This document shows, piece after piece, positions 16,994 to 51,366 of a DNA stretch of 64,000 nucleotides. The stretch lies in contig MU832012.1 in assembly GCA_029204225.1 (NCBI GenBank), positions 27,666 to 91,665 of the forward strand, written 5' to 3'. The position numbers and the translations under genes were made by a program. The number at the start of each line of letters is the position of its first letter. The stretch's first letter is position 1. This stretch comes from Diphasiastrum complanatum (taxonomy: Eukaryota > Streptophyta > Lycopodiopsida > Lycopodiales > Lycopodiaceae). The notes under the pieces are model-generated. The model did not search any database. It was not told the origin of the DNA and was given only the letters and a program-made list of their open reading frames with translations.

Positions 16994-16999
16994 AGCCGC

Positions 17000-22785: not shown

Positions 22786-23399
22786 AAACTCACTCCTGGT
22801 GGTGCGCGTCTCTGTAATGAAATCAAACATCTCACAATCGGTTACTTCTCTACTGATGGGAAGAGATCCTTGTTGCACTACAACGCTGCAAGGAACATAG
22901 ATTTTGGAAATCATGATTTTTTTGCAGTGACAAAAAAACTAAAAAATCCGATGATTGGGGTTCTATGGCTTGTCCATATCAAAAGCCACAAGAACTTGTA
23001 AATAAACTAGTTGAAACGTTTTCTCATCCAGTTACTGGTAGTGGCACTACTAGTGCATGTGTTGTCCAAAAAGGCAGACCTGTTGCGGCCGTAGAATTAG
23101 ATGAGAGTTTAGCAAATTTTGTTAAGATGAGGTTAGCTGGTATATCAGTTTTGCCTGATGAGTTTCAAGAGGAGGGTAAGTTGGGCCCCTATGAAGACGG
23201 TATTGCTCCATTTGTTAAGGAGCCTCAACCACCTGCCAGTGGTATTGTTGGTGATGAAGGAGATCTGGCCGAGGTGGTTGAGCAAAGATATAATGTAACT
23301 GAAGAAGAAGTTATTCAGGATGGGACAACAACTCCAACAGATACAGGGGTTGGAAAGGTGGTTTCTCCAGATTCAAGTGATCAAGTTGAAAATTTTTGA
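22786..23399 (+). pseudogene. fragment of a bacterial-type DNA N4/N6 methyltransferase
   Basis: Two overlapping frames. The first (to 23001) reads TPGGARLCNEI, HYNAARNIDFGNHDFFAVTK. The second (22965-23399) reads ACPYQKPQELVNKLVETFSH, then TGSGTTSACVVQKGRPVAAV and ELDESLANFVKMRLAG. This matches the C-terminal half of the N-4/N-6 DNA methylase fold: QKP.EL...L, then the SAM-binding GSGTT, then GR..A.ELDE. About eight residues just before GSGTT (usually GD.VLD.F) seem deleted, and a frameshift lies near 22950. The last 75 residues are an acidic tail with no motif. The catalytic DPPY/NPPY motif is not seen. It is a pseudogene; source unknown (transposon, virus or bacterium). Confidence 0.6.
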
Positions 23400-28640: not shown

Positions 28641-28760
28641 GCTAAGTGGAGCGAGGTTTCCGATGGACTGTCAATGGGTTGGCAAATTATCTGCTACTTT
28701 CAGGGTACATCAGCATACGAGGACACGATGACAATATACAAAATAAGCATGAAGCCCAGG

Positions 28761-31700
28761 TTACAAGACGGAATACTTCCCAGGTTGTGCTGAGCCTGGA
28801 AGGGATAGGGATGCCGATGTTGATTCTTCAAGTATACGTTTCACCTCGGTTTTGGCTTTTTTCACTGATGTTTCTGATGGTCCCTCAATAAACAAAAAGA
28901 GCTTTCGCTCACCTGGGGCTGGAATTTTTCCAGGTGGGAAAAATTGACCTCTTGTTGTAATAGCTGCACCTGTCCAATCAGTAATTTGACCCAGTGAATC
29001 TTTGTGAGTGACCTTCCAGCGCGCATGCTGCGGAAAATCATTGATTTCAAATTCGGCTTCATAGTGCTCAGGAATGGCTTCTGCCTGAATTTTTGCAAGG
29101 CTATGCTGTAAGTTCATCACTGCAACTAAGGCTGATGCTCTGGCAGCTCCGTTGTTCATGTCGCCAGCAGGAAAAGCTAAGCCAGGAATGCCAAGAGATT
29201 CTATAGAACCTTGAGAAGCAAGGTGTCCTGAGTGAGCCTTACCAGATGCAGCTTGAGCCATTGCTGCAAGGGCAGCCTGCAGCTGTGGATTTACAGCTGT
29301 ACTGGAACCTGGAATTCCAGTGGTAGATGCAGCTTTAGCAGCAGCAGCAACAGCAGCTGCTGCTTGAGCCAAATCTCCTCCAGCCTTGCGGATACCTTCA
29401 TTATCAGATTCAGAATCAGATTTCTCCTCATCCTCTTCAAATCCGTACTCTTTAGCCTGGGCTTTCTTAGCAGCTTTTCGAGCCTCGTCTTCCTCTTCAT
29501 TGAATTTGAACCCACTTCCACCATAGCCACTGCCATGTGCCTGTTCACTTCCTTGCTTAACTTTGGCAAGAAATCTATCAGCAAGACTCTTCAAATCTTC
29601 TGGAATAGCTTGTTCAGAAAGTTCCAAAGCTTTGACCAAATCCGGTGCATATCGTTCTTCTTCTGTAGAAATGAATGTAACAGCAAAGCCTTTTCGTCCA
29701 GCTCTTCCAGTACGTCCCACACGATGAACATAATCTTCATAATGATTGGGTACATCGTAATTTATAACGATCTCCAGATCCTTCACATCAAGGCCTCTAG
29801 CTGCAATGCTTGTGGCTACGAGAAGGTTACATACATTTGCCTTGAAATCTGCAAGGGTAGACTCTCTGTCAGTCTGGTCCTTGGCCCCGTGTAAAGAAAG
29901 GCATGGATAACCTGATTTAAGGAGATCCTTGAAAAGACCATCACATTTATCCTGAGAATGAACAAAAACAAGAATTTTCCCCTTCTCATACCACTCACCC
30001 AAAAGCTCTAATAACCTGAGAAAACGTTCACTATCAGGTCGTACCTCTACATGCTGAGTTATATCTGTGTTTACGACACTCCGACCTCCAACTTGGATCT
30101 CAACCGGCTTATTCAACACCTTGCGAGCTAGAACCTCTACTTGTCTGGGAAAAGTTGCTGAAAACAGGACTGTTTGTCGATCAGGCCTTGTATTCTGTAC
30201 GATTCTTGTAATTTGGGGTTCAAAGCCCATATCAAACATTCTGTCTGCTTCATCCAAGACAAGATAAGTCACCCGCCTCAAATTTGTGATCTTGCCAGAG
30301 CTGGTGCACAGAATATCAATCATCCTGCCAGGTGTGCATACTACAATTTCGGTGCCCCGTTTTAATTCACTGATTTGCTGAGCTACTCCAGAGCCACCAT
30401 AGACGGCAACACAGGTCAAAGACATCCCCTTTGAAAATTTCTTAATGTCACTGTAGATCTGCTGAACCAGCTCTCTTGTTGGAGCCATAATAAGTCCAAT
30501 GGGTCCATCTCCTGAAGCAAGAGGAGGCTGATCCATTATATGCCTAAGCATTGGAAGGACAAATGCCATAGTTTTCCCTGAACCAGTCTTTGCAATACCA
30601 ATACAGTCTCTGCCACTCATAATGATGGGAAGTGCCTGAGCTTGAATGGGCATAGGCTTTTCGTACCCTGATTTCTTGATTACGTCCAGAACCTTATTGC
30701 CGAGCCCAGTCTGGTTCCACGTTCTGATAGGCTTTGGCACGTCTTTCCCTCTAACCTTCAACTCAAGCTCCTTGCGACAGACAGCTTCTTCATCTGCAGT
30801 TATCCTTAAGATTTCTTTAACTTCTATGTAAAAATTCTTACGAAAAGGCATGTAATTTACTTTAGAATGATCGACAAGAGCTAACTTCTCTGCTTTGCTC
30901 TTTTTCACCCTCTTCAGAAAGTCATCATCATCTTCCTCGCCAGCATCCCCTTCCTCATCATCTCCAAAATCATAATCAGACACTGAGTCCTCCTCAGGTA
31001 TAATACGACCAACAGTTCTTGAAACTTTTTTGGGAAATTTTCCATTTTTGTCCAAACCCTTCAACTCTTGTGCTCCCTTCATAGGAGCCTTTTGTGGCAA
31101 AAGGGATGGAGCTTCAATCACAGGTGCCTCTTCCTTGAGATTCTCTACTTTCGGGAGCACCATGGCGTTCATGAACGCATCAAGTGGATCCAGCTCTTCT
31201 TCATCTTGTTTATCATCCACTATAGCCACATATGCTCCTACGTAATCAGGTTTAGGGCCAGGAATTTTGTTCACTTTTTTTGTGGCCAGTGAGGGCAGTG
31301 GCTCGTCGTTGCCTGCCATCTCCATATCTCCATTTTCAAGACCCATTATGTCAACGTTTCCTGTGGCGCCATGGGCATTTTCCCCATCTGATTCCTCCCC
31401 TTCAAGAGTCCAAGATTTGCCGTTGGTAAGCAGCTCAGTCTCCTCAACGTTACCCCTTTTCTTCCTCTCCTCTTCATCCTTGGATCGTTTGCGCTCCTGC
31501 CACTCTTGCACTCTCCTCCGCCGCTTATCTATTTCCTCGTCAAGCTTCCTTTGTTCTTCTTCAGCATCCACTGGCTCCATATCTCGTTTAGACTGCTCGG
31601 GCTCCTTTTCCTCTCTTCTTGACCTTTTCCGATCCCCCCGAACTCCATCATCCTCATCTTTTCTGTGTCTCTCGCGTTCTTTGTCTCTTTTTTCCTTTTC

Positions 31701-32012
31701 ACGCTTCTTCTCCTTCTCCCTTTCCTTCTCTCTCTCCCTCTCCCTTTCCTGGGCCTTCTCCTTCCTTTCCCTAGCTCTCTCCCTTTCGAAACTCTCCCAA
31801 TCCCTATCGCTCTGCTCCTTCTCCCTTTCTTTGGCTTTCTCCTTCTCTCTCTCCTTCTCTCTCTCTTTCTCTCTCTCTTTTTCTCTATCCCTCTCCTTGG
31901 ACCTAGCCCGCTCCTCCCTGTATCGATCTCGCTCCCTTCGTTCAATCTCCCCGCCTCTCTCTCGATCGCGCTTGCGCTCTCTTTCCCGATCACGATCCTT
32001 CTCCCTCCCCAT
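28761..32012 (-). CDS. RH42: Prp5/RH42-type DEAD-box RNA helicase, copy 2
   Basis: A single 1083-residue open frame, a close paralogue of the gene at 13730-16993. Domain order is the same: RE/KE-rich tail (1-145), DPLD (275-278), acidic patch, AKTGSGKT (474-481), DEAD (587-590), SAT (618-620), ARGLDVK, HRVGRTGRAGRKG (763-775), Ala-rich linker and KH-like C-terminal domain (about 980-1060). All motif residues are intact. By eye about nine residues in ten match copy 1; changes cluster in the N-terminal tail, the 200-340 linker and the Ala-rich segment. The core changes are conservative, as expected if both copies are selected. Similarity at the nucleotide level continues about 90 bp past the stop codon (to about 28667) but fades within 15 bp upstream of the start. 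Same orientation as copy 1, 11.8 kb away. Confidence 0.95.
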   Translation of the reverse strand: MGREKDRDRERERKRDRERGGEIERRERDRYREERARSKERDREKEREKEREKEREKEKAKEREKEQSDRDWESFERERARERKEKAQEREREREKEREKEKKREKEKRDKERERHRKDEDDGVRGDRKRSRREEKEPEQSKRDMEPVDAEEEQRKLDEEIDKRRRRVQEWQERKRSKDEEERKKRGNVEETELLTNGKSWTLEGEESDGENAHGATGNVDIMGLENGDMEMAGNDEPLPSLATKKVNKIPGPKPDYVGAYVAIVDDKQDEEELDPLDAFMNAMVLPKVENLKEEAPVIEAPSLLPQKAPMKGAQELKGLDKNGKFPKKVSRTVGRIIPEEDSVSDYDFGDDEEGDAGEEDDDDFLKRVKKSKAEKLALVDHSKVNYMPFRKNFYIEVKEILRITADEEAVCRKELELKVRGKDVPKPIRTWNQTGLGNKVLDVIKKSGYEKPMPIQAQALPIIMSGRDCIGIAKTGSGKTMAFVLPMLRHIMDQPPLASGDGPIGLIMAPTRELVQQIYSDIKKFSKGMSLTCVAVYGGSGVAQQISELKRGTEIVVCTPGRMIDILCTSSGKITNLRRVTYLVLDEADRMFDMGFEPQITRIVQNTRPDRQTVLFSATFPRQVEVLARKVLNKPVEIQVGGRSVVNTDITQHVEVRPDSERFLRLLELLGEWYEKGKILVFVHSQDKCDGLFKDLLKSGYPCLSLHGAKDQTDRESTLADFKANVCNLLVATSIAARGLDVKDLEIVINYDVPNHYEDYVHRVGRTGRAGRKGFAVTFISTEEERYAPDLVKALELSEQAIPEDLKSLADRFLAKVKQGSEQAHGSGYGGSGFKFNEEEDEARKAAKKAQAKEYGFEEDEEKSDSESDNEGIRKAGGDLAQAAAAVAAAAKAASTTGIPGSSTAVNPQLQAALAAMAQAASGKAHSGHLASQGSIESLGIPGLAFPAGDMNNGAARASALVAVMNLQHSLAKIQAEAIPEHYEAEFEINDFPQHARWKVTHKDSLGQITDWTGAAITTRGQFFPPGKIPAPGERKLFLFIEGPSETSVKKAKTEVKRILEESTSASLSLPGSAQPGKYSVL

Positions 32013-32040
32013 AGCCGCGTTGCTTTGTTTTTGCTCTCTG

Positions 32041-32440: not shown

Positions 32441-32441
32441 A

Positions 32442-32480
<39 letters not shown>
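32441..32480. repeat. (TA)n microsatellite next to a Helitron 3' end
   Basis: About 40 bp of alternating AT, directly followed by AA and the CTAG terminus of the Helitron-like element. Helitrons insert between A and T, so the tract is a plausible target. Confidence 0.9.
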
Positions 32481-32483
<3 letters not shown>

Positions 32484-32486
<3 letters not shown>

Positions 32487-32512
32487 GGGCTGAGTGCCCG
32501 TCGTTGACAGGC
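32484..32512 (-). other. Helitron 3' terminus A (hairpin plus CTAG)
   Basis: Plus-strand reading: CTAG (32484-32487), GGCTGAGT spacer, then GCCCGTC-GTT-GACAGGC (32496-32512), a 7-bp stem with one mismatch and a 3-nt loop. On the minus strand this is hairpin, spacer, CTAG, host T. Confidence 0.7.
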
Positions 32513-32614
32513 AATGGCGGCCGATCTAGGTGACGGCCGATGATCTGGAAATTCAATATGTTGTTGACGGGTGATGACGACCGATCTAGGTGACGGCCGA
32601 TAATCTTGTGAATC

Positions 32615-33175
32615 TTGGGAAAAATTCGAGTCTTGGGAAAATTCGAGTCTTCGAAAAATCATCGAGTTCTTTGTAAAAATTCAAGTCTTTGGAAAAATTC
32701 GAGTTTTCAGAAAAATTTGAGCCTTTGGAAAAATTCAAGTCTTTGAGAAAAATTCGAGTCTTTGAAAAACATTCGAGTTTTCGGAAAAAATTCGAGTCTT
32801 TTGAAAAAAATCAAGTCTTTAAAAAAAATTCGATCCTGTGGAAAAAAGAATTCGAATCTTTGGAAAAAATTCGAGTCTTTGGAAAAATTTGAGTTTCCAA
32901 AAAAATTCAAGTCCTTGAAAAATTCGGGTCTTTTGAAAAATTCGAGTCTTTGGAAAAAATTCGAGTCTTTGGAAAATTTTGAGCTTCCGGAAAAATTTGA
33001 GTCTTCCGAAAAATTTGAGTTTTTGAAAAAATTCAAGTCTTTGGAAAAATTTGAGTCATTAAAAATTCGTTCCTTTGGAAAAAAAAATTCTAGTTTTTGG
33101 AAAAATTCGAGTCTTTAAAAAATTTGATGCTTCGGAAAAAAAATTCGAGTCTTTTGAAAAAAAAATTCGATAACT
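32615..33175. repeat. AATTCGAGTCTTTGGAAAA minisatellite (element A)
   Basis: About 560 bp of imperfect tandem units of 14-19 bp built on AAATTCGAGTCTTTGG. Long frames on both strands (32689-33118 plus, 33036-32707 minus) are Lys/Phe/Glu/Ser repeats arising from the array and are not genes. The same array occurs inverted at 41040-41525. Confidence 0.92.
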
Positions 33176-33796
33176 CGCATAATTCTGATTTTTTGGTATC
33201 AAAAAATTACGGATTTTCCAAATCAATCTCGTATCGAAAATTTCTAATTTTGGATATCGAAAAGTAACGGATTTTTTGAGTCAATACGATATCGAAAAAT
33301 TCTGAAAAATGCGAGTCGAGTTTCTACTATAAAAAATTCGAGCCTTCCCTTTTTTGTGATTTTTTCAAAGATAAGTATAAACAAGTTTTCAAGGGCACCC
33401 AATGTCATCGTTGTTAAAAAGAGATTTTCCAACCCTGGATGGGATTCGATCGAGGCGAAAATTATCCGAACGTGTTTAACCTTGGATCATAAGTTTTTGG
33501 TTTTTAGCAGTGAAGAAGGGATGGTGTGTAATTTTTATGACGACGGGGTGGGCTTAGCTTTAGGTTTGATGGTAGGGGGCATGTGTGCTTACTTTTTAGG
33601 CTTAACAGATGACATTTTTGGTTTTTAGAGTTGACTAAGGACTCCGGAGGTGTGTGTAGTTTTTAGGGGTTTAAATTTTAGATTGAAATAGCAAGAGGTT
33701 ATCAAGAGATGGTACATAGAGCAATGATGAAGAGAGAAATTTTTGGTATGTCTTACTTTTATTGTATGATCTATCTATAATGATTGAGTCAAGAGA

Positions 33797-33797
33797 G

Positions 33798-33845
<48 letters not shown>

Positions 33846-34015
33846 GAGATGTGTGTCACATATCTCGCTTAGAGAGAGAGATGACAGCAAAAGTCCGAGT
33901 CAGAGAGAGGCCGAGAGAGTGACTTCGGACATATCTCGCACATCTCATATCTCAAACAGCTCGCACATCTCGCATATCTAGCATATCTCGCACATACCGC
34001 ATATCTCGCTTGTTG
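33797..34015. repeat. (GA)n tract and ATCTCGCAT minisatellite
   Basis: A GA run at 33801-33842 is followed by repeats of CATATCTCGCACATCTCG-like units to about 34015. Both are simple repeats inside Helitron-like element A. Confidence 0.85.
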
Positions 34016-34104
34016 TGTACATCTCACATTTTTGGAAGTGTGTGTTCATGTGAGGCAAGGTAGATACAACATAAGAGCAAGAAATAAATACACAGCGGAG
34101 GAAG

Positions 34105-34230
34105 AGTAGAACTCCGGCTCTTCTTTTATATAAAAAATATGTACATCCCAAAATTGCTAAGAGAATTACTGGTACTATCAATCCCGCTATAACACCTTCC
34201 CTCGACTGATGAGTTTTCCCGATAAGTATA
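34105..34230 (-). pseudogene. captured transmembrane exon (type I-like)
   Basis: Minus-strand text: FSDILIGKTHQSREG, then the hydrophobic AGLIVPVILLAILGCTYFLY and basic KRR. This looks like a single membrane span with a cytoplasmic stop-transfer end, as in receptor-like proteins. A TGTGTGCAG just upstream could be a 3' splice site. I cannot name the parent gene. Confidence 0.4.
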
Positions 34231-34701
34231 TCGGAAAAGCCTGCACACAGAAGACCAAAAAGTAAATATGACAGTGGGCATTCCATCTAAAATTTCTATT
34301 TGCACCAGCCGTATACATGAAACTTCTCAAAACATCAAACAAGGAGTAGAATGCTTGTAACAAAGACCTTTGAATCTGCCATCAATACATTCATCGTTTG
34401 TTTGAAGGCTAGAGCCATACTCTCTACTATTTTAAACATTGACAGAAAGTGTGTTTTTCCTCGCTATGATACATTCAAGTGCATTCCATAATGATTACCA
34501 TATCCCTCGTAGTAGAATATGGTCGTCACTCAATTGTAAGAAAGACATTTTCACATCTGATTGTAGGAAAGGCACTTACACTCGATCCCCAGAAAGATAG
34601 TGACCCATCAATGGGATCAAAATGAATGTTGCAAAAAGTAAGAAGTCCAAAACATAATAGTTTTTTTTCATACTTTTCACATTTCATTATAGAAAAGTCA
34701 A

Positions 34702-35262
34702 TTACACAAGTTGGGTTTCAAAGAATGCATGAAATTTTGTGAGAGTACCGAAGAAAAGCCGCCTGTCTGCCACCACATCCTGGTGAGCTGCCAGTGGAGG
34801 CGGGTAGATTTGTTGGTGGTATGAAGACCGCATGGAAGGCACATGGGTTTCTGCCTGTGGTGGCTGCGGCCTCAAATTGGAGGTATGCAGCCCAGAGCTT
34901 GGAGGCAGACGAGAGGTCTGCAGATCCAGCAGAGTACTCTCAGGGCTCTCGGCGAACAATTGCATCCCAGCAACAGAAGCCTGCGAGGGAACAGCCGCAA
35001 GCTGCGCAGACAAAGAGGGCGGAAGCAGCTTCCGAGCCTGCACTATTCCTGGAACGGAAGCGCTTCTGGAAGCCACAACTCCTGTCTACGCATCCGCCAT
35101 TGGCATTGCCACATACGGGACACCTCCATGGTTGATCTGCGAATGCGGTTGTAGATTTACAATAGGAAAGAGGAGGGGAATTTGCTGCCATAAAGGGGAA
35201 GGGATTTGATGATTGAAGGGAAGGAAGGAGAGGGGGGGGGGGGGCACCTCCAGCGGTGGTTG
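34702..35262 (-). pseudogene. Pro/Gln-rich coding fragment of unknown origin
   Basis: Minus frames 35328-35086 and 35076-34702 give text rich in Pro, Gln, Ser and Ala ([48 protein letters not shown]). The DNA is GC-richer than the surroundings, which supports a captured coding segment. No domain is recognised. Confidence 0.4.
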
Positions 35263-35264
35263 AG

Positions 35265-35455
35265 GGTAGTCGGCCAGATCAGGGCATGTGGCTCGTTCGA
35301 GGTGGCAGCTGTGGAGGCGTACTGCCATCCCGAAACGTAGATAGTGTCAAGATACTTCGCCATCTGCGCAACTTGCATTAGATCGAGCGATCCCAAGGTG
35401 CGAGAGCACGCCTTGTTGGCCTGGTGATTCTTGAGTATGTGCCTAAATTTCGAGA
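35265..35455 (-). pseudogene. isocitrate lyase exon fragment
   Basis: Minus-strand reading: [20 protein letters not shown], then [20 protein letters not shown] and STAATSNEP; after a 2-base shift, PDLADYP. Plant isocitrate lyase (glyoxylate cycle, isocitrate to succinate plus glyoxylate) has [15 protein letters not shown]...TSNEPGPDLADYP at this place. About 60 residues are present out of roughly 570; the catalytic KKCGH lies elsewhere. Beyond DYP the sequence is unrelated, as at an exon or capture boundary. It lies on the same strand as Helitron-like element A and is best read as captured cargo. Confidence 0.85.
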
Positions 35456-35631
35456 TGGCAGAATCCAGAACTTTTAGCAGATTGTTCAAAGCCCCCTCCC
35501 CAGCAGTTTCGAGAACAGTGCAGCTACCCAAGGTGGCCCCTGACAGTAATTCATGGATTTATGCAGTCAATCATCTATGTAATAAATTATAAGACTTGGA
35601 CCAACATAATCAACTGAAAGCCCACAAGCAA

Positions 35632-35985
35632 TCAAATTAAATCAGTGGAATTATCTGGTTTGCAAGGAACAAATGGAATCCAGGATCTGAGTATAGGCAT
35701 CACCAAAAGCTTCATTGGCCCATTTATACAGTGGAAACCCGCATCACATGCGAAAAAGTTTGGCCTGAGTTCTGACAGGATAAACTCAAAGCCTTCCTCT
35801 CCTTGAGAGCTGTCAGCTACTTCGTATGAATCGTTGAAATCACAGTTTAGAAAGTGGTCAAAGTCTTTGAGCAAGTGCACGTTGTGGTAAATTGTAAAGT
35901 TTCCCAAGAGCTATTTTTCTAGTAGAATACTGCCATCGAAGATAACATCATCATCTATTGTCAGAGAGCTACTTTATAAGTAATA
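35632..35985 (-). pseudogene. captured coding fragment, unknown family
   Basis: The minus frame reads SLTIDDDVIFDGSILLEK, a stop, then LLGNFTIYHNVHLLKDFDHF and LRPNFFACDAGFHCINGPMK. The protein-like text on both sides of one stop shows a real exon, now broken. I do not recognise the family. It probably belongs with the exon at 36103-36350. Confidence 0.45.
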
Positions 35986-36102
35986 CCAATTCATAAAAAA
36001 TTCAAGTTTCAGGAAGCAGTATTGCTGAGACTTTTGAGGATGCATATGTGTGAATTGATGCTAATAAGTTCTGTAAACAGCTAATTGAGTTGGGAGATTT
36101 AC

Positions 36103-36350
36103 CGAGGGAATCGCCCATGTAGAAGGTGTTGTATTCATTGCCCACTCTGTGTAGTTGACTCCATACTTCCAACCAAATTCTCCTCCAACTTTGATCTCTG
36201 TCAAGGGTAGGCTGCCATGGCTGATAGAAGATGATCACGATAATGATCAGCGCACTTGTAGATGCACACAGCCTCACGGCCAGCCATCGAGCACCCAGCA
36301 GGATCAGAGAGACCCGATCGAAAGAAAGATAGAGAGCCTGCGGGTTGGGG
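36103..36350 (-). pseudogene. captured first exon with membrane anchor, unknown family
   Basis: The minus frame reads LGARWLAVRLCASTSALIII, VIIFYQPWQPTLD, then EYNTFYMGDSLG, with a candidate 5' splice site (GGTAAATC) straight after. This looks like a short N-terminal signal anchor and lumenal stem. The first part of this segment (to about 36237) is shared with the copy at 42044-42373, so it belongs to the 5' end region of the Helitron-like family. Confidence 0.4.
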
Positions 36351-36478
36351 GGGGAAAATTTTTGAAATTTACTTTGTGTGTGTACATGTGTCCGCCCAAA
36401 AAGGCTTGTATGTGTTATTCTTTTTACCATTTTTTTAAAAACGCTTTTTTTTCTTTGCAAGAGCTTGACATTTTTTGC

Positions 36479-36568
36479 GGGTTAATTTTTTGACGGCAAC
36501 CCTTACACTCTCTCTCTATAATATATTCTAGAGAGAGAGTGTAAGGGTTGCCGTCAAAAAATTAACCC
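36479..36568. repeat. 39-bp perfect palindrome joining two element 5' ends
   Basis: 36479-36517 and 36530-36568 are exact reverse complements (outer end GGGTTAATTTTTTGACGG) with a 12-nt AT-rich loop. Similarity between the arms continues in diverged form for some 200 bp further out. Each arm is the start of the shared 5' segment also found at 42044. Confidence 0.95.
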
Positions 36569-36741
36569 TGTGCTGCCAAAATTGTCACACTCTGCCCGCA
36601 AAAAATGTCACTCATTTTACAAAGAGTTTTTTAAAAGCTAAAAAAACGTTTGAAAAAGAATGGTAAAAAAACAACACATGCCCATCTTTTTTTTTTCTTT
36701 GTCACACACATTTCAATTTTTCAATTTTTTTCCCACAGCGA

Positions 36742-36762
36742 TCTCTCTCTCTCTCTCTCTCT
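36742..36762. repeat. (CT)n microsatellite
   Basis: About 20 bp of CT in the 5' region of element B. Confidence 0.85.
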
Positions 36763-37356
36763 ATGGCTGGCGCCTTCCACTGCTGCTGTGATCGTGACGG
36801 CTAGTGTTGATCGCTCGCTTCTACTGGTCTACACCCTAAAACACATGAATTGATGTTCCATGTGATGCATCTAGAGAAAGATCCAAGAGCTTTGGATGCC
36901 AGAATACAAGAGCAAAAGTAGATTGTTGCTCAACAGCAGGCGGTATTGCAACATGCAACAGTCGCCATTGCTGTTTTTTGCCCCACCTTCTATGTAGCAT
37001 CCTTGCCCTACATCAAAATATGTGGCGAAATCGAGCTTCAGACTCGGCTAACAGCTCCCGGATTACCTCATATGCACCATCTGCGCCCTATCCAGATTCA
37101 AGCAGCTATGGCAACGAGCAATAGGAGGTGTTGGGATCGAGTTCTAGGAAGTGGAATCCTTCAAAACTAAAGGCTTCACCATCTCGACTCTCTTCCTACC
37201 TAATAGCCTACTTAACTCAGTGTTCGTTTCTAAGGATTAGGTGACAGGTTCCCAACCAGTTGGCCAGTTTGTCAAAGATTTTGATTTCTAAAATTCAGAA
37301 ACCATCATTCCATTCATAAATTTCCTATGACCAGATTACAGTGTAGGTAGCCCGAT

Positions 37357-37800
37357 TTGTTTGAGTCTAATGTCTCTTATCTTGTTGACTTCATAACCAA
37401 TAAAAGTGCTCGTGTTATTGTTGTTAAGCATCTTAATGCCATGGGCGTTCCTACAGAGATTGGCATGAAATTGATAGGCCATACATCTAGAGAAGGTTAT
37501 ATGCGGTATAACACTGATGCGGAAGGAATTCAGATGCGGGCATTGCAGAATGTGGCTTCGGCTATACCTGGTACTGGTGGAGACGTTTCTTGGCAGGTTG
37601 CACATGATTTTGAGAGGAAAAGATATGAAGATGTTTTCATGTCTTGCAAATCTGATTCTGGAAATAAGTTCTTGCAATTTGCAGTTTTGCCGTGGAGGAT
37701 TGTTTAAACAATGATGTTGTATCTTCTCTTTGTATTTGTGGCTGCTGTGATAGTCCTTGTGAGTGTACACATTGCCTTGATGACTATGGTGGTCATCTGA
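37357..37800 (+). pseudogene. Crypton/KIAA1958-like tyrosine recombinase, C-terminal fragment
   Basis: The frame reads NKSARVIVVKHLNAMGVPTE, then LIGHTSREGYMRYNTDAEG. This fits the C-terminal catalytic box of the tyrosine recombinases in Crypton elements and their domesticated relatives (NHSGR/NHSAR, then GH.S, then the Tyr nucleophile). Visible catalytic residues: Arg of SAR, His of IGHT, Tyr of the YMRY segment; the first His (N-H-S) is replaced by Lys. After a frameshift near 37690 a Cys-rich tail follows (SLCICGCCDSPCECTHC). The N-terminal half is absent. Cryptons cut and paste DNA through this recombinase; this copy is a broken remnant inside Helitron-like element B. Confidence 0.6.
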
Positions 37801-38679
37801 AAGTCTTCATGCTGAAGCAGATGCTTTAATCTAGAAGAATATGAAGTTCCATAATTAGCTTTGGTTGCACTGTGAAGGATTATCAGATTTGGGACATTGT
37901 GTTTCATGTTTGTGACTGGTGGTAAAACTCCTTTTTGTACTGATAATGGAGAGTGGCGACAATATAAGCGTTTGAATTTCAAATGAGTCTGTTTATCTGT
38001 TGCATTTGTGATTTTATATTGTCCATCTGATGTATTTTTATACGTACTATATTTTCTGAGTATACGGAAGGGGGGGGGTAGGAGCAGGGGCGGAAGTTTA
38101 TGGAAAATTATTTGTCCTGCGGTTTCTTCAGAAACCGTAGGCATGGCTAATAACGTGGCCAATTGCCTACACCCCTGTAAGAACGGTGGCCTAAATTACT
38201 TGCCATACTATTTCAAAGAGAGATAGAATAAAAATGATACATAAATTGGGGTGTCTTGCAGCTCTACATGTGGTTCATTAGGGGGAAAAGATAGGAAGTT
38301 CATTATCCCATTTCACAAAAGAAATCAAAGGCCCCCATGTGGCAGATGATGTGGCATAAAAATGCTGACTTGGGTAAGTGAAGATGTTGGGCACTACTCC
38401 CGATAACTTCACTATTGTAGGGCCACTATTTTCTAGAAGACCTTGAGATTTGAATTTCTAGGTGGGAGAATATCATGTTGGTTGTTAGCATTCATCGGCT
38501 CTCATTCTTCGTTCATTCTTCTTCTTCAGAGATCTCTTTGGTCTAAGGGGAGATGTGCTCTTGGGTATCTCTGGCCGAGTATCTTGAGGATTCGTCAGAA
38601 TCAGCCAATATCATCTCACCCCTAATGTGTTGCAAGGCCCACTGCAACCCATGTTGAATGATATTGCTCCGCTCTTGCA

Positions 38680-39420
38680 TTGGCATCTTTGATTGTCACT
38701 TGGAAAAGCGTAGATCCTCGTTCGCTTGCATTAAACCAAGTGCTTATTGTTGCTGGTCTTTACCACAAAAACTATTTTTCTCAAATTGCCAAAATCTTTC
38801 ATTCATTATCAAAGATTAATGTGATTGGAAGCCAGAAGATAGTATTTGACAGTCTGAACAGACAGTATGATTTGTTTAAAAAGCAGCACAATGATATATT
38901 GCAGCAGAAACACGAATATCAGCGCATGTAGAGTGCTGAGCTGCGCAATGAAGCTCATTATCTAAGACGAAAGCTAGATGCAACCAACGATGAAATCCAG
39001 AGGATACAAATTGAAAGAAATGAAAAAGAGAGAACAATTGCTGAGACTACCCAGAAGCTGGATAAATTGCAAAGCTACAAGATGAAACTTTACAACAGAT
39101 TGCTACAAGATGATACTATGTTATGGAGTATAGCTATAGAAGATTCTTCAAAAGCTTTCTTGGTCAACGATAAAGATCGTATTGATCCAGAGGTATTAAA
39201 GAACTCCTAAAAAAAGCAAATATAAGAATATGAACGGAAAGCGCTAAATCCAATTGTGGATCGCGCTGAGCAGTTGCAATCTGAGAACTTCCAACTCCAG
39301 GATCAGATAACTCAATTGCACACCAGAGGTTTGCCTTCAAGCTAGACATCTAATTGTGCAATCCGGACAGATGAAGACCTCCTTGGTATTGTGACGTTAT
39401 TGAATGAAGCTGAAGGTATA
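38680..39420 (+). pseudogene. coiled-coil coding relic, unknown family
   Basis: One plus frame, broken by three stops, reads NQVLIVAGLYHKNYFSQIAK, IVFDSLNRQYDLFKKQHNDI, LRRKLDATNDEIQRIQIERN and EYERKALNPIVDRAEQLQSE, then DEDLLGIVTLLNEAEG with a GT right after. Heptad-like spacing suggests coiled coil. I do not recognise a family. Confidence 0.45.
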
Positions 39421-39989
39421 AATCTTGCCAAGCCTAAAACAGAAAAACACCAACCCATGCATGGTTCTTCAAAATGAGTTCTATTTTTTATTTGAGCAGT
39501 TTCAAAAAATTTTACCTCCTTACCTAGCCCAAAACTTTGTTGGAAAATAAATTTTGCTTTTTTGTGTGGGTTACTAGGTTGTAGGTATTCAGAATGGAAC
39601 ACTTGCTGGACTCGCCAACAGTTCTATTACTTGTGGCATACTCTCACTACCTACCAGAAGGGCATCATAGCATTAGGTATTCTCCAAGGCCATTTTTCTG
39701 TCACTCTTGGGTATGAGACCTATATCACTGGGGGATTGTCTTTGTTTGCCTTGAATTATTTTAAAGAGATTGAACTCCAACTCCTTCCCACGCGACCTAA
39801 GGTTGAATAATGGTTTTTCAGTAGTTGGTTTTCTCTGAATTCATTGCCCGTCCATAGCTCAGATATAAGTCTGAATTACTATTGCTAGCAAGACAAAGCT
39901 ACTGCTTAGATCTATATGAGTGGCTGACGAGCTGAATATTTTGTGTCGTGTGGCTGTTCTCATTGATTTCGATTTCTGAAGAATCCATA

Positions 39990-40228
39990 AAGAATGGAAA
40001 TGACACATTTTATCCAGGGAAGTCTATTTGATTGATGGTGTGGATGAATTGCTAAATAGAAAACCAACAAAGTTGTTCTACAAAAATGAGAATATATATA
40101 AGGCCAAAAGAGAGAACAAAAAATCTCCATGCTACACACTTGATCTAGAATTTGGAATGATGGAGCCAATTCCCAGAAGAGTTGATTTCTTGTATTTTGG
40201 ACATGAACATTTTGATACAAAAATATGA
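39990..40228 (+). pseudogene. short protein-like frame, unknown
   Basis: Plus frame with VYLIDGVDELLNRKPTKLFY and ACYT/CYTLDLEFGMMEP-like text ending at 40228. It has normal amino-acid composition but no known motif. It lies in element B between the coiled-coil relic and the minisatellites. Confidence 0.25.
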
Positions 40229-41039
40229 ATGATAGTGAGTAGTTTACAAATCTATAATAATATGTGTGGTTGATCTTTAATGGTATAATTTGGAAACTAT
40301 TGAATGCACACAAAATGATGCTGATCATGAGCAGTCATCATGTGTATTTTGCATAAATTACAACATATACTTGGTAAATCTTGATTAATCAGCTGCATTG
40401 TATATTCCTAAATACCCATAGAAATATGATCTATCTTCTCAATCGATGATCTTCGCATTTGCTTTTTGCAACGCTGAAAAATGCTATCATATAAAACATC
40501 AAAGTACACTCCAGTTCCGTCATGGTTAATGATGAACAGTATATGATCTGCTTCCAAAACTGTGTGGTACCTAAAAGAGAAAGCCTTTTGTCAGAGTTTG
40601 AGTCATCCACTGTAATTTAATAGAATTAGCGCAGTATAACTGGAAAATGCAGCTCCTCAAAAAATGAAGGTTAAAAACAATGCTAGAGATAGAGCGCAGT
40701 GGGGGACAAATTAGATAGAGCACATAAAAGATTAGTAAGAAAAAAAATCAAATCCAATCCTGACAACTATATGTACTTATACGAAAACTAGAAAAAGAAA
40801 GCTAAAATTTTTAGCAGAAAATCGAAAAAATCCAGTATTGAATTTTTTCGATCCAAAGATCAAAATTCAGAATCAGAATTTTTTGATACCGAATCGACTC
40901 GAAAAAAGCGTAATTTTTGGATATCCAAAATAAAAAAATTTCGATACCCAGAATTAGAATTTTACGAGATGTGATCGACTCAAAAAACCCATAATTTTTC
41001 AATACTCAGATTCAAAAATTTTTGATACGAGATCAGCTC

Positions 41040-41525
41040 GAAAAATCCATAATTTTTTTAAAGACTCAAATTTTATCCGAAAACTCGATTTTTTCAAAAG
41101 ACTCGAAATTTTTAAAGGCTCAAATTTTTTGAAAGACTCGATTTTCTTTCCAAAGACTCGAATTTTTTGCAAGACTCGAATTTTTTCAAAAGATTCGAAT
41201 TTTTCCAAAGACTCGAATTTTTTGAAGGCTCGAATTTTTCAAAATGATCAAATTTTTTTGAAGGTCCGAATTTTTCGGAAGACTCGATTTTTTCAAAGAA
41301 TCGTATTTTTTTGAAAGACTCGAATTTTTCTGAGGACTCAAATTTTTCAAAAGACTCAGATTTTTCCATAAGTCTTAAATTTTTCCAATGTCTCAAATTT
41401 TTTTCGAAGACTCAAGTTTTTAAAAGGCTTGAATTTTTAAAGTTTCGAATTTTTCAAAAGGATCGAATTTTTTTCAATGACACGAATTTTTCCAAAGGAT
41501 CGAATTTTTTCGAAAGATTCGAATT
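41040..41525. repeat. CAAAGACTCGAATTTTT minisatellite (element B)
   Basis: Reverse-complement counterpart of the array at 32615-33175, with the same unit (GACTCGAATTTTTCCAAA). Open frames on both strands are array artefacts. Confidence 0.92.
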
Positions 41526-41529
41526 TTCA

Positions 41530-41905
41530 AAATGCGAAAGTACTCTTAAGATTGTAGAGGTGCCCTTAGAAAAATGTGAAGGTGCACTTAGAAAAATGTG
41601 AAGGTGCACTTAGAAAAATGTGAAGTAAAAAATGCGACACTGCCCTCCAAAAAATGCGACACTGCCCTCCCACTCCCAAATAATGCCACATTGCTCTCCT
41701 GAAAAATGCGACACTCCTCTCCAAAAAATGCGACACTCCCCTTCCACTCGCGAAAAATGCGACACTGGCCCTGTTGAAAAATGCAACACTACACTTCAAA
41801 AAATGCGACACTACTCTCCCACTCCTGAAAAATGCAACACTGGCCTCTCGAAAAATGCAACATTGCCCTCTGAAAAATGCGACACTGCCCTCTCCCTCCC
41901 CCTCT
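41530..41905. repeat. two further minisatellites (GTGAAGGTGCACTTAGAAAAAT and AAAAAATGCGACACTGCCCT)
   Basis: At 41560-41625 a 22-bp unit is repeated about three times exactly or nearly so. From 41630 to 41905 a unit of about 20-35 bp containing AAAAAATGCGACACT is repeated about ten times. Neither array is present in element A, where the order passes from the first minisatellite to the terminus. Confidence 0.9.
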
Positions 41906-41993
41906 CAAAAAATGCTTCCTCCCTCCCGAACAATGCCCGTCAACGAGATACTCAATTTCCAAATCATCGGCCGTCACTAGATCGGCCGCCATT

Positions 41994-42022
41994 GCCCGTC
42001 AACGACGAGCACTCACAACTAG
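41994..42022 (+). other. Helitron 3' terminus B (hairpin plus CTAG)
   Basis: GCCCGTC-AAC-GACGAGC (41994-42010), spacer ACTCACAA, CTAG (42019-42022), then T. Same architecture and nearly the same sequence as the terminus at 32484-32512, in opposite orientation. Confidence 0.7.
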
Positions 42023-43039
42023 TATATAATATAAAGATATTTTAGAGAGAGTGTGTAAGGGTTACCGTCAAAAAATTAACTCTGTGCCGCCAAAAATGTC
42101 ACGATTTGTCCGTGAAACATGTCACGCATTTTACAAAGAAAAAAACTAAAATACATTTTAAAAAATAAGGTAGAAAAATAACACATACAAGTCTATTTTT
42201 TTTTTCTTTTGGATGGACACATGTACACACACACAAAGTAGATTTGAAATTTTTTCCCCCCGAACCCATGCGCTCTCTATCTCTCTTTCGATTGGGTCTC
42301 TCTAATCCTGCTGGGTGTTCGATGGCTGGTCGTGAGGCTATGTGCATCTACATGTGCGCTGATCATTATCGTGTGAAAGGTTGCACTATAGGTCTGTGTC
42401 TATGTCTCTATCTATCCACGATAATAGTGCATTGGCATTGCAATTTTCTTCTCATTGATCGATCTGATCATCTGAATAGCTTGAAAGATTTGTTGGTTTC
42501 TAGGAGTGTTTGTGATATACAATAAAAATTATGATGCATTTATTCCAACATAAAAAGGAAGGAGTAACGCCTCAAGAGGAGATGAAGTAGGACAAAGGCC
42601 ATGAGCAGGTGGGTGAGGGTATTGCCTTGGGTGCAAAAGGTGGCGCTCTGGTGAGTTAAATCCATTGCCAAAATTCCAAGATGGTGTGAATTATCTCAAG
42701 CCTCAGATGTTCGTCTCACATTGTTGAGTTGTCTTAGATGTTCATCTCACATTGTTGAGTTCTTTCTCGCACATGTGACGAATGCGTTTTATGACTCTAG
42801 AATGTAGTGATCTGTAATCAGAGATTAATTTCAAATTTGTAATCTGTGTCGCTGTGATGTAGGAGCACTAACGCTTTTAGAGATTAGAATTTCTGTTCCA
42901 CTTCAAATCTGACCAAAGTGTATCACTTGTGCTACGAAGTCTCAGACCACTTTATTCAAAGGTATTGCTATTACCGTTGGAAGAAAACATTAAGTCCATT
43001 TCTAAAATTAGCAATCCTATAACTAACACAACGCATTTC

Positions 43040-43165
43040 ATCCAGTATGAAAAACATGAAGCCAAGAAAGATCCGGAGCATGCTCACAAGCACAAAGTGG
43101 AAGAAGAACTTGCTGCAACGGGAGGCGTATTCATTGCATCCGACTTTTCATATCAAGTTGCAAAA
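43040..43165 (+). pseudogene. ASR (ABA/WDS) gene exon fragment
   Basis: The plus frame contains [20 protein letters not shown] and ELAATGG, the signature core of plant abscisic acid, stress and ripening proteins (ABA/WDS domain). These are small hydrophilic stress proteins that bind zinc and DNA. Only about 30 residues match; the N-terminal His-rich part and the C-terminal GFAFHEHHEK-type end are missing. The frame continues with unrelated text to 43180. It is on the same strand as element C and is best read as captured cargo. Confidence 0.85.
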
Positions 43166-43334
43166 AGTAGTTCGAAATGAAATCTAGACAAGTTGAAACA
43201 TGTCCAACCTTTATCTGTGGAACATTTTTCATATGAATCTGTGATTCGAGTGCTGTAGGAATGAGAACGTCATAGGCCATCTCCAATATTCCGTCTCTTT
43301 CTCTAATCTATTATAGCACATTGTCTTAGTCAAT

Positions 43335-43650
43335 TTCATTACAAAGAAAACTAGATGAGATAGAAACAAACATGATCAAATTGTCTAATCATCCAGAGGC
43401 AATACCAAAAAATTTATTCTATCTGTTGGCATGCAACAAACCAGGTGCTAGCTTTGAGAGAAGTAGAAGTAACTTGGAAAGAAGAATTATTGAAGCTCAC
43501 AGTTCTGGTAGCTGGAAACCCAGTGACTGTCCTATTCATATTGAAGTAATCTTTTAACTTTGGAATATCTAAACCTTCCCTTGACTCATCAACTATTCCA
43601 CCATTATCTAAACCTTCTCCCTATTTCTCAACATTGTCTATACGGCTCTC

Positions 43651-43712
<62 letters not shown>

Positions 43713-44143
43713 GAAAACTTCAGGGTGGCACAAGTGAATCATAGAGCAAATGCATCATCTCTTTTCTCCAACCTTACATGATACATAAATTTCTTCCAGA
43801 TGGTGGTCCAGGTGCTCGACACACTACAGAATGCATCTCAAAATTTAATGATGGTTTTGCCAAAATCAATACCTCTGAGATACAATTTGATTCTAACTTA
43901 AGGATTTCTGATAACATTTTAATATTATCTGAGACTGTCGATGGTCTATATCATATGTATAAACTGCTCGAGGAGTTTAATTTACAAAAAGAAAAAGAAA
44001 GAAAGAAAAAGAAGCTCACTCCAAGGCTGCAAAATCCTTCTAGGTTTTTGATATTGAGCAGCGGTCGACATAGTCTGCAATACGAGCATATCCCTGTGAG
44101 AACAGCACTAAAGTCAAAACTGTTTTGTGGTTTTTTTGGTTGA
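43335..44143 (+). pseudogene. two protein-like fragments, possibly exons of one captured gene
   Basis: Fragment one (about 43345-43550) reads KLDEIETNMIKLSNHPEAIP, LFYLLACNKPGASFERSRSN and ends at a GT. Fragment two (about 43775-44000) reads FLPDGGPGARHTTECISKFN and NILILSETVDGLYHMYKLLE. A CT microsatellite and a CTTCAG-G acceptor-like site lie between. I do not recognise either. Confidence 0.3.
43653..43709. repeat. (CT)n microsatellite
   Basis: About 57 bp of CT repeats in element C. Confidence 0.95.
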
Positions 44144-44149
44144 AAGTAG

Positions 44150-45120
44150 CGGCATTTCCCAAAGAGCTCGAAACTTCATTACTACCTTAGCCAAGCTTAC
44201 CTCAAGTTCAGCCTCAGTATCAGTTGGAGTTACCGATGCCGTAAAATCTCATGTGTGAAAGAAAGTCACATTGTTAAAAGTTAAGTTTTAATTTGAACCT
44301 TCTAAGTCTATCAGCCTTAGAACTTCAAAAATACCAAACAGCCATAAAGCCTTCACAATAAGATAAAGAAATTACGTTATCTATATAGTATTACCAACAT
44401 CTTCAAATCTGTTGCAATCAACAAGCCCCTCTTCAATAGAAATCTGAGTAAAACACACAACAAGCGCTATTCTAAGGTTTTTCGAATCTATTGCTATTTT
44501 TCAGATCTATAGTGCCAAATGCAGTCATATCACACCAAAAAGATATCAATGACATTACATACCTCAATGGGAGTCAAATCAATCGGTAATTTCACATCTG
44601 GATTCTGCTGTAGTGCCAATTGTAGTCATACCACGGTAATAATTGACATCATCCACAAGCATCCTGAAGCTGATCACATGGAAATGAATCTATAATATAT
44701 GTACTGAAAGATGGTGTGAAAGCTATCTTTAAGCATATGGTTCCTGTTGCGTAATGTGAAATCGGCTCATAACAAATTTGGTCATTTGCAAGCTATAGTT
44801 CATGTCAAAGGCCTGCGAAGGCCTACTTGCCTTTCATCATTCCTATCCTTCAGTGTGGCGGACATGGATGGCAATATCAACATGCTCCTTTCAATGGGTG
44901 CTGAACTGGATCACCAAATCAAATATGAAACACATAGAAACGTATGCCTCTCTTGCATTATTAGTAAGGTGTGTTAAAAGGTTGAACACCCCTATTTTTA
45001 ATGCAACAATTGATAGGATTTACAGTTTAGCTGTTAGCAATTGATATCGATTAGTATTTTCACCCAGTTCAGAATTGGATCAATTCATTGTTCAAACTGC
45101 AATTCATGGTTTGCCAGTGC
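44150..45120. other. no recognisable gene
   Basis: About 1 kb of AT-rich DNA. Short plus frames at 44747-44977 and 44802-45044 overlap in two phases and carry no motif. Confidence 0.4.
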
Positions 45121-45155
45121 TGCTACACACACATACACATGTCCATTGATTTTTG

Positions 45156-45220
45156 TACACACACACACACACACACACACAATCTCTCCCTATGACACAT
45201 ACAAACACATTCTCTCTCAC

Positions 45221-45301
<81 letters not shown>
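45156..45301. repeat. (CA)n and compound (CT)n(CA)n microsatellites
   Basis: CA at 45156-45182, CT at 45226-45272, CA at 45272-45301. The compound CT-CA order is the same as at 10622-10724. Confidence 0.95.
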
Positions 45302-45305
<4 letters not shown>

Positions 45306-45559
45306 ATATCGCTATTTTTACTCCATAAGCGTTTCTGGATGGACCATTTGGGTACACACACAAAATAACTTGGAATCTAACCAACACAATCTTACATCGA
45401 GGATGCCGCTAAGCAAAAAGAAGCAGCACCATCCAAGCATCTTTATAAGAGCTTTGCAATCTGTGCAAGCTAAAAGTTATCGCACAAGGTATTGCAAATT
45501 TGCAACTATTGATTCTGGTTCCGCCGCTTTACGTTGATTGAAAGGCCGTGGAAATGTGA

Positions 45560-45990
45560 CAAGAGAATTTCTTCCAAATTCGGCCAAATCGTCGAATGTA
45601 AACCGTCGGACGTAAACCTTGTCAAAAAATTCAACCCAATGGTGAAAATCCGACCTGATGGTACAAATTTGACCCAATGGTAAAAATCTGACCCAATGTC
45701 ATCCTTGTCAAAAAGAGATTTTTCGACCCTGGCCAAATTTGGTCAAATTGGTCGACTTTGGTCGATTTGGCCAAATTGGTTAAATTGGTCGAATTTGACC
45801 GAATTGGTCGAGTTGGTCGAATTTGGCCGAATTGGTTGACTTGGCCGAATTTGGTCGAATTGGTCGAATCTGGTCAAATTTTGGTCGACTTGGCCAAATT
45901 TGGTCCAATTGGTCGACTTGGGCTAGCTTGGTCGAATTTGGTCAACTTTGGTCAAATTGGTCGAATTGGGCCAAGTAGAGGGTTTGTGTA
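45560..45990. repeat. TTGGTCGAATTTGGCCGAA minisatellite
   Basis: Imperfect tandem units of 9-13 bp built on TTGGTCGAATT, densest at 45730-45980. A plus frame across it (45758-46069) is a repeat artefact. A 42-bp stretch at its left edge (45691-45732) resembles 33397-33438 in element A. Confidence 0.85.
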
Positions 45991-46004
45991 TTTCGAGTTG
46001 GTAC

Positions 46005-46316
46005 AATTTATGACAAGTGGTTTTGAGTGTTATTTTGGTTGTCGACAGACATTAAAAAGTAACCAGTAATACTTATATTTGGGTGTGTTGTGTTGATAAT
46101 TTTCAGAACAACAATTTGGCCTCTGTCAAATCGAATGAAACGCGTTTTACAGATGAGATGTTATCAGAGTAGTACAACAGTACTACACTCTGGCTGATTA
46201 AGGTGTCAACAGAGAGTCGAGAAATGTTCGATGTATTCACGATTGTACAGACAATTAATTAATCGTGTTCGTGAACTGTTCGTTTCTAGACAGACATCCT
46301 CAACAACTAAAGTCCA
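46005..46316 (-). repeat. partial LTR (left) of the gypsy element
   Basis: Matches 49095-49406 base for base apart from scattered changes, from AATTTATG to AACTAAAGTCCA. It lacks both true LTR ends: its left side abuts the TTGGTCGAA minisatellite and its right side abuts integrase flank. Confidence 0.85.
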
Positions 46317-48990: not shown

Positions 48991-49002
48991 AAAAATTGGT
49001 AT

Positions 49003-50239
49003 ATGTCGTACTATACCAACAAGGTTAATATAGATTTTGTAGCAAATAGTGTCGTTCCCACAGAGGACAACGTTAGAAAGTTATGTTTTTGGTAAAATTT
49101 ATGAAAGTGGTTTTGAGTGTTATTCTGGTTGTCGACAGACCTTAAAAAATAACCAGTATTACTTATATTTGGGTGTGTTGTGTTGATAATTTTCAGAACA
49201 ACAATCTGGCCTCTATCAAATCGAATGAAATGCGTTCTACAGATGAGATGTTATCAAAGTAGTACAACAGTACTACACTCTGGCTGATTAAGGTGTCAAC
49301 AAAGAGTCGAGAAATGTTTGATGTATTCGTGATTGTACAGACAATTAATTAATCGCATTCACGAACTGTTCATTTCTAGACATAAGTCCTCAACAACTAA
49401 AGTCCAAATTAATGGTTAAAGAACACGAATGGTTTCAGAGCACGTTAGAAACTTATGTCAAGGACAATTAGGAAAATAGATCAAAGACTCAATTCTTCAA
49501 ACAGGGACTGTCATCTCATATGTATACATACAGCTTTATTCAATGATCGTGCTAGACTGTACCAAAGATAGTTGTTATTCGAGTGCCGAAAAGAAAGTAT
49601 TCGCGACAGACGAATAAGATGGTTTTAAGACAGTTCTTTAGAGCATGTTTTACGGATACACAACAAACGACTGTAATGCACTAGAGAGTCTGTCTGATCA
49701 GAGAGTAATTCATGTAATGCGTTAGAGATTGTTAGTAGACTCACACTCAACAGTGCAGAGAACAGAGATAAGAGAGAATAACTCACAGAATTCTATTCAC
49801 TTCTTCACTCTCTTACATATGCATAAACTCTTCTCTCTCGATGCTCGAGACTGAAGTGTGAGATCTATATATGTTCTACAGGGTGAACAAACATACCTCT
49901 TAAACAACATGTGCGTCGCTCCCACGAAAGGTTCTAGTTAACAATTAGACTATGTATACGTTCAATTATACCATAAAAGGTATATTTAACTAAGAGTTAA
50001 AACTGCTTTAGTTTAACATGTCTTTTCGTATCTAGTCATTTCGTGTGGACGCCCTAGTAAAGGTTATCCAAGGCAATGTCCTTCCTATTAAAGGTCTTGT
50101 CCTTAATTACAAGACAAGTACTTAAGAGATATATTCTCAAAAAATGACTTAGGCCTTCTCATGATTTATACTTAACCAGCTCATATCTTCATTTTCGAGT
50201 ATATCATGCCATATTTATGTTGATATTCAATTTTTAACA
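49003..50239 (-). repeat. 5' LTR (right) of the gypsy element
   Basis: Inner edge TGTCGTACTATACC about 12 bp from the primer site. Contains GTCGTTCCCACAGAGGACAA, a sequence common in plant gypsy LTR ends. The outer edge is placed near AACA at 50239, where copia RT text begins; that boundary is uncertain. Confidence 0.6.
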
Positions 50240-50242
50240 ATA

Positions 50243-50492
50243 AGGTGGCATCACACATGGACATTAGAGCCACTGCCAGAAAATAGAAAAATAGTCGACT
50301 GCAAGTGGGTATACAGGAAAAAGATGAAATCAAATGGCACCATTGGCCGCTACAAAGCAAGGCTTGTCGCGAAGGGCTACACGCAGAGATATGGTGTTGA
50401 TTAGTTCGACACATATTCGCCCATGGTCAAGATGACAAGCATAAGGCTACTCCTTGCATAGCCACACATCACAATCTAGAAATTCACCAGAT
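50243..50492 (+). pseudogene. copia RT scrap (older insertion)
   Basis: The frame reads WHHTWTLEPLP, DCKWVYRKKMKSNGTIGRYK, ARLVAKGYTQRYGVD, a stop, FDTYSPMV; after a one-base shift, HHNLEIHQ. This is the start of the copia RT domain and it breaks off exactly where the next element's LTR starts. Confidence 0.88.
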
Positions 50493-50493
50493 T

Positions 50494-51366
50494 TGTTAAA
50501 AATTGTAAAACATATCTATCATCTGTTGTTAATGTTTAAGGGATCCTACCCATGTAAATATATGTACATATCCAAGGTATGTGAATTGAGCACATATCCT
50601 TGTAGAATAGGGCGAGTTTGGATTAGGTAGATCAAATTCCAGTGACATGCATAAAGTCTAGTTGGTCTAGTATGATATGCAATAATGTTGACAATGTCTA
50701 GTTTGACATGCATATAGAGATTCACATGGAATTGGTCAATTATGACCTTGTAGAAACTCGAGCCACAATAAATGCATAATGTCCTAAGTTTCCATAGTGA
50801 CATGCAAAGCATGCGATCACTCTAATGGACACATGCATGTAGATTTGTACATGGCTAGTTGAGAAATTGCCATTTGGAGAAAGTAGCTAGAAGTTAGGTG
50901 CAACCTATGCATGCTAGCAGTTAGGTGTCAAGTTAATAGCTGTTTGCACTTGAGTAGGTGTAGGATGTGCATTGAATGCAAGGAGTACCACAAATTTTGG
51001 CTCTCCTATATATGTACATATCATTCTCATTCACAAAGTAATGAAGAACCAAAGTTTTGTAGCTATCTCATGCTTGGTTGGATCTAAACTGTTTTTTCTT
51101 GTTATCTCTCTAGCTCTCTCTCTCTCTCTCTAACTCGTGTTGAGGCTAATGCTTATGCATTGTAATCTTGTACTTTTAATCATTCTTTGATTCATTGCTA
51201 TCATAGTCTATTGATTAGCATGCTAGATTGCGAATTAGCCATATCTTCTGAACTAGATCTTGTTGAACAATCTAGAATCAGGGTACTGTGCCAATCACAA
51301 AGCTTAATCAAGATCAGTCACTCTTGTGGACATTCCCCACACGTGTGAATTCTGGAATTTTCAACA
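50494..51366 (+). repeat. 5' LTR of copia element 5
   Basis: Starts TGTTAAAAATT and ends AATTTTCAACA, which are near-perfect inverted ends with TG..CA termini. The right end touches the primer site TGGTATCAGAGCC. Length 873 bp. Contains a short CT run at 51116-51132. Confidence 0.75.

Follow-up and report, generated by a model that had tools for sequence, protein, structure and literature searches.

Separate insertions as the probable origin of a head-to-head and head-to-tail cluster of Helitron-like elements in Diphasiastrum complanatum

How do two Helitron-like 3' ends come to face outward, 9.5 kb apart, from either side of a palindrome? The question is raised by a locus of Diphasiastrum complanatum (GenBank assembly GCA_029204225.1, contig MU832012.1), for which the stretch analysed, here termed the window, is 64,000 nucleotides long (C494:27666-91665); the genome searched for relatives amounts to 1.74 Gb in 5,176 contigs. 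The likely answer is separate insertion, one after another, of dissimilar non-autonomous members of a Helitron-like family into a single TA-rich target that lies upstream of a presumed DEAD-box gene. The cluster is one of a known element type, and not a new kind of double transposon. It consists of a leftward element, E1 (32484..36514, minus strand), a rightward element, E2 (36515..42022, plus strand), and the 5' region of a third, E3 (42023..42373, plus strand), that adjoins the E2 3' end. A preliminary description of the window had two elements only; these stand, and what it overlooked is the third 5' segment behind the second 3' end. Its proposal that two related elements with Helitron-like ends and different cargo were inserted beside each other is upheld. 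The limits of E1 and E3 derive from pattern matching and alignment, with inner stretches of E1 common to two copies elsewhere (L013, L019), and those of E2 from a complete 1,214-bp relative together with larger relatives that have common cargo.

The outward-facing ends, each reported earlier as a hairpin plus CTAG, are present at 32484 and 42022. A 21-base pattern for the hairpin, taken from copies in the genome, matches at 32492-32512 (minus) and 41994-42014 (plus), with one mismatch each, and in none of 100 shuffles. The terminal CTAG of E1 occupies 32484-32487, next to a host A at 32483, and that of E2 occupies 42019-42022. Folding and pattern place the E1 hairpin at 32496..32512 (minus), and the same evidence together with genome copies places that of E2, which has one stem mismatch, at 41994..42010 (plus). 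Folded alone the two give just -3.9 and -5.9 kcal/mol (z about -1.4 for both, with 18 and 20 of 200 shuffles doing as well); what supports them is conservation among copies. The matching terminal sequence, previously put at about 95 bp, is 87% identical between the right and left termini over 94 bp. Inside both 3' ends there is, as also remarked before, a minisatellite of one family: repeat search finds an 18-bp unit at 32613..33161 near the E1 end and the same unit in reverse complement at 41051..41527 near that of E2, the inverted arms being 75% complementary over 150 nt.

Conservation was gauged with a 3'-end query for which 40 of 1,478 candidates were scored and loci were given for the best 30. 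These were collapsed by eye to 21 on the basis of common flanks, none being discarded before ends were counted (L019 and L022 have similar flanks, yet are counted separately). Both this query and that for the 5' segment extended a few bases past the element. All but one of the 21 loci end in CTAG, the other in GTAG, and the genome copies read do stop there, as a genuine terminus requires. The next base is T in every one of the 21, and an A stands before the E1 end and before the 5' TC at two loci, a pattern that insertion between A and T without target duplication would leave. The hairpin has a 7-bp stem and stands 12 nt before the end, CTAG included; counting G-T as a pair, all seven stem pairs are kept in 13 of the loci and at least six in 19. 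The flank begins TATATA in 18 of 21, as against 0.7% of 5,780 A|T sites in the window, a contrast inflated by the 11 flank bases in the query, which skewed the sample toward TA flanks. In two loci (L027, L028) a further sequence like the 3' terminus occurs about 120 bp inward of the actual one and is possibly an older end.

A TA microsatellite also flanks the E1 3' end (32441..32483, from sequence reading and repeat search), and such surroundings bring to mind some other TA-targeting DNA transposon whose ends happen to resemble CTAG, e.g. a Mutator-like element of the MuTAnT type, which targets TA microsatellites (PMC4486113). That a Rep/helicase is not demonstrated for the present family would also sit well with such an origin, as would the TA-rich flanks, within the bias of the query. 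However, MuTAnT elements duplicate 9 nt of their target and carry long terminal inverted repeats (PMC4486113), and neither was seen here: a complete 1,214-bp copy has termini that are, by eye, unlike each other and free of long inverted repeats. The hairpin and CTAG are at one end alone, the T following them is invariant, and a gene fragment has been captured, so that membership of a different transposon class is very unlikely. Plant Helitrons canonically have a CTRR 3' end, a hairpin some 10-12 nt before it and no terminal inverted repeats, all of which are found in this family. Capture of host gene fragments, frequent though not obligatory in Helitrons, is seen in E1, which contains, in its own direction, a piece of isocitrate lyase (35286..35456, minus; Pfam PF00463, E 3.3e-20; PDB 7ebe, E 6.3e-16). 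Among characterized relatives, the Phytophthora Proto-Helentron has the same 3' CTAG and inserts between A and T, and the TTCTAG start that appears here when the leader described below is ignored would agree with its 5' TT; its Rep/helicase is established, whereas the present family is known from ends and cargo (PMC4067079). Helraiser/Helibat likewise has a 3' CTAG with a hairpin some 11 nt ahead of the terminus, an A|T target and a 5' TC such as is likely here, and its preference for AT-rich DNA is strongest on the 3' side; unlike the elements in the window, Helraiser is an autonomous reconstructed element, and stacking is not described in the relevant passages of its report (PMC4778049).

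That the pieces in the window are separate elements follows from the complete 1,214-bp copy (contig C10, near 14.86 Mb), which has both E2 ends, matching 36527-36762 and 41625-42022 at 91%. It also joins 5' and 3' parts that might otherwise have belonged to different families. Larger relatives on C10 (L003 and L004, duplicates of one locus), C11 (L006), C7 (L007) and C4 (L008) match E2 at 90-97% in its 5' end and in cargo. The first two are without 37247-39509, and the other three are without 37354-38789, in place of which they have 68 other bases. In the flanks fetched for these five, the sequence upstream of the 5' end showed no further family end. Three inner stretches of E1 recur, in the E1 direction, at 86-94% in L013 and L019 (C4). 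Another locus, L030, has at its positions 1231-1602 a segment resembling the E3 5' segment at 71%, about 370 bp before a 3' end, and is perhaps a very short complete family member.

Between E1 and E2 the two 5' segments are opposed near 36515-36530, and the inverted repeat noted there is confirmed: a 22-base pattern for the segment matches without mismatch at 36488-36509 (minus) and 36538-36559 (plus), and in none of 100 shuffles. The palindrome (36460..36593) matches itself at 84% over 140 columns, and a single strand of it has a predicted fold of -34.5 kcal/mol (z -14) with a 10-base AT loop. Perfect opposition of the 5' segments about a centre of some 10 bases, and outer ends that match, are what would be left by one Helitron that a strand switch or replication error at its 5' end had doubled head to head, if the halves later diverged and changed cargo. 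Identities over the 150 bp that follow the leader, computed without gap columns, point elsewhere. In that one stretch E2 is 97.2% identical to L003 and 94.4% to L008, copies on other chromosomes, and 78.6% to its supposed other half; E1 is as close to E3 (82.2%) as it is to E2. The cargoes of E1 and E2 are also unlike, and E2 is followed by a third 5' segment in head-to-tail order. An inverted dimer, offered in the preliminary description as one origin of the pair, is accordingly improbable.

The same description allowed that the pair, having two 3' ends, could move as a single 9.5-kb element. Its two outward CTAG ends are indeed rightly placed for this, but in rolling-circle transposition the 5' start and the 3' end have to lie on the same strand, and a pair with two 3' ends has no outer 5' end. 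With the 5' segment as query (40 of 762 candidates scored, 51 match rows, loci given for the best eight), an inverted partner appears among the match rows at C494 and at contig C1322 alone. C1322 matches the gene-side flank of the window at 98.8% over 3,439 columns, so it is not an unrelated site to which a composite had moved. Mobility of the pair as a unit is on this evidence the most improbable of the explanations considered. C1322 and a further contig, C2330, share the gene-side flank and first part of E1 with the window at 98.8% and 99.4%, respectively, and may be haplotype or segmental copies of the locus; the cluster on C1322 was read in three pieces (L002, L009, L041), and on C2330 the reading took in the gene side together with about 1.45 kb of E1. 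L002, L009, L040 and L041 represent these near-identical contigs among the loci. Between its arms the palindrome in C494 has an AT-rich stretch of about 10-12 bases, and that in C1322 has no centre. Palindrome centres are commonly lost, and the difference could conceivably also be an assembly error.

Separate insertion of dissimilar elements is also the reading to which the right-hand join points. The third 5' segment (42052-42073, plus) has two mismatches to the 22-base pattern and lies directly behind the right CTAG. A rolling-circle concatemer was considered for this E2-E3 join and rejected, the two being 83.2% identical in their first 150 bp and having one 183-bp match in all. There is precedent: adjacent Helitrons are already known in maize (PMC2267711), and a review (PMC12477314) relays the claim of Yang and Bennetzen (2009) that Helitrons insert near other Helitrons. 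In maize bacterial artificial chromosome AF466202 a CTAG/TC join of two dissimilar Helitrons was explained by two insertions (Du et al. 2008, PMC2267711). As in the window, the neighbours there are dissimilar and have different gene fragments, and CTAG is followed by the next 5' end; unlike the window, the arrangement is solely head to tail in section 8 of that paper, though its abstract says head-to-head. The window has a true head-to-head pair too, and three 5' ends in the region. The tandem Helitrons of Myotis bats (Pritham and Feschotte, via PMC2267711) likewise have head-to-tail joins with no host base between, but are read as repeats of one element, whereas E2 and E3 have just the limited similarity given above. 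For Helitron clustering the locus provides a clear case in a plant outside maize, with the added feature of a captured isocitrate lyase fragment, and its head-to-head join is displayed by two contigs with different centres.

Where exactly the 5' ends lie is relevant to how such joins could form. The E1 5' end is near 36514-36520 and that of E2 near 36515-36527, both positions being approximate, the former on account of the eroded centre. The limits 36517/36530 given initially are probably short of the family's full 5' end, since a TA-rich leader, TCTATATATATAAA..., is present further out in some copies elsewhere. At the L003/L004 locus and at L005 the boundary reads A|TCTATATATATAAATAT before TCTAGAGAG or TTCTAGAGAG, and at L024/L032 there is a CTAG|TCTATATATATAAAG join, which the E2-E3 join of the window resembles. 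On these comparisons the family 5' end is likely to be a TC start with a TA-rich leader. This TC thus comes after A at two loci and after CTAG at another; it is unclear in L006, L007 and L008, and eroded in the window.

If so, canonical insertion would read A|TC...CTAG|T, and each arrival would re-create AT at the 5' end of the newcomer. Since this dinucleotide is its own reverse complement, a later element could enter there in the same or the reversed direction. Same-direction entry would yield CTAG|TC, i.e. a head-to-tail join such as that of E2 and E3; reversed entry would yield GA|TC, a spacerless head-to-head palindrome such as that of E1 and E2, the centre of which would erode later. The order and route that we infer begin with E3, rightward, followed by E2, also rightward and joined by its 3' end to the 5' end of E3, and then by E1, leftward and joined by its 5' end to that of E2; the host A at 32483 would fit the reversed entry of E1. 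Mobilization would presumably have been by a Rep/helicase encoded elsewhere. Such a route would extend the consecutive insertion of Du et al. to both directions, and in a limited literature search no description was found of head-to-head stacking via re-use of a 5' A|T. Granted serial insertion, the chances of this route and of plain preference for a TA-rich site are about even.

At five of the 21 3'-end loci, the window included, the 3' end is followed by another family end at a distance of up to about 60 bp, in a sample that is small and drawn from best matches. Three of these close pairs are head to tail (the window, L024/L032 and L036/L038); at one further locus (L014-L016) a facing 3' end is about 270 bp away. 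The broader proposition is that a Helitron 5' end is a self-renewing A|T landing site at which later copies stack in both orientations; head-to-tail strings would arise in this way, as would head-to-head palindromes that then break at the centre, and the window would be one such stack of many in the genome. It is put forward tentatively, as something less probable than its negation. Were it true genome-wide, 5' A|T re-use would be a simple and testable reason for the gathering of Helitrons and the seeding of palindromes.

Several observations weigh against serial insertion by 5' re-use, or parts of it. The other two close pairs (L020, L035) are tail to tail, for which 5'-AT re-use does not account; they would need ordinary TA-rich targeting, for which the AT preference of Helraiser on its 3' side is a precedent. 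A|TC is clear in just two of the five distinct 5'-end loci outside this one, plus the L024/L032 join. The expected GATC centre is absent from the E1/E2 join in both C494 and C1322, so that erosion must be assumed. E1 is 91.1% identical to L003, but with 76 gap columns, and 76.1% to L008 with 32; the former figure is taken as an alignment effect. L013 and L019, E1-like inside, have 3' termini most like that of E2, which implies that family members exchange parts. No empty site was found at the locus, the left flank occurring in three places (the window and two contigs), all with the E1 end. A Pfam scan of 10 pieces of E1 and E2 gave no Rep/helicase match.

Other coding content is slight. A stretch in E2 (37393..37521, plus) resembles tyrosine recombinases weakly (PF00589, E 0.098 and 0.044, below the Pfam cut-off), and a PDB search extended to E 10 gave no match; the stretch was set aside as too weak to claim, and falls in 37354-38789, the part of E2 absent from L006-L008. 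A 28-residue fragment of an ABA/WDS-induced protein (43037..43120, plus; Pfam PF02496, E 3.8e-11), which may or may not belong to E3, comes about 1 kb after the 5' end of that element. An E3 3' end was found neither by pattern search of the window nor by reading of 42601-46100 and 49000-52500. Two pairs of direct repeats, 45998-46316/49089-49406 (92.8% identical) and 55433-55983/58856-59396 (92.0%), are probably long terminal repeats of retroelements, and the retroelement at the first pair may have cut off E3. Elsewhere, the open reading frame 22965-23399 weakly resembles DNA methylases (PF01555, E 0.28, short of the cut-off).

On the other side of the cluster, the E1 end is about 470 bp upstream of a minus-strand open reading frame, 28761-32012, which from its motifs we take to be a DEAD-box helicase. 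Minus-strand reading frames at 13635-16999 and 28664-32018 are 90.9% identical over 3,383 columns; these two long frames are a tandem gene duplication, presumably of a DEAD-box helicase by their motifs, and it is upstream of the second copy that the E1 end lies.

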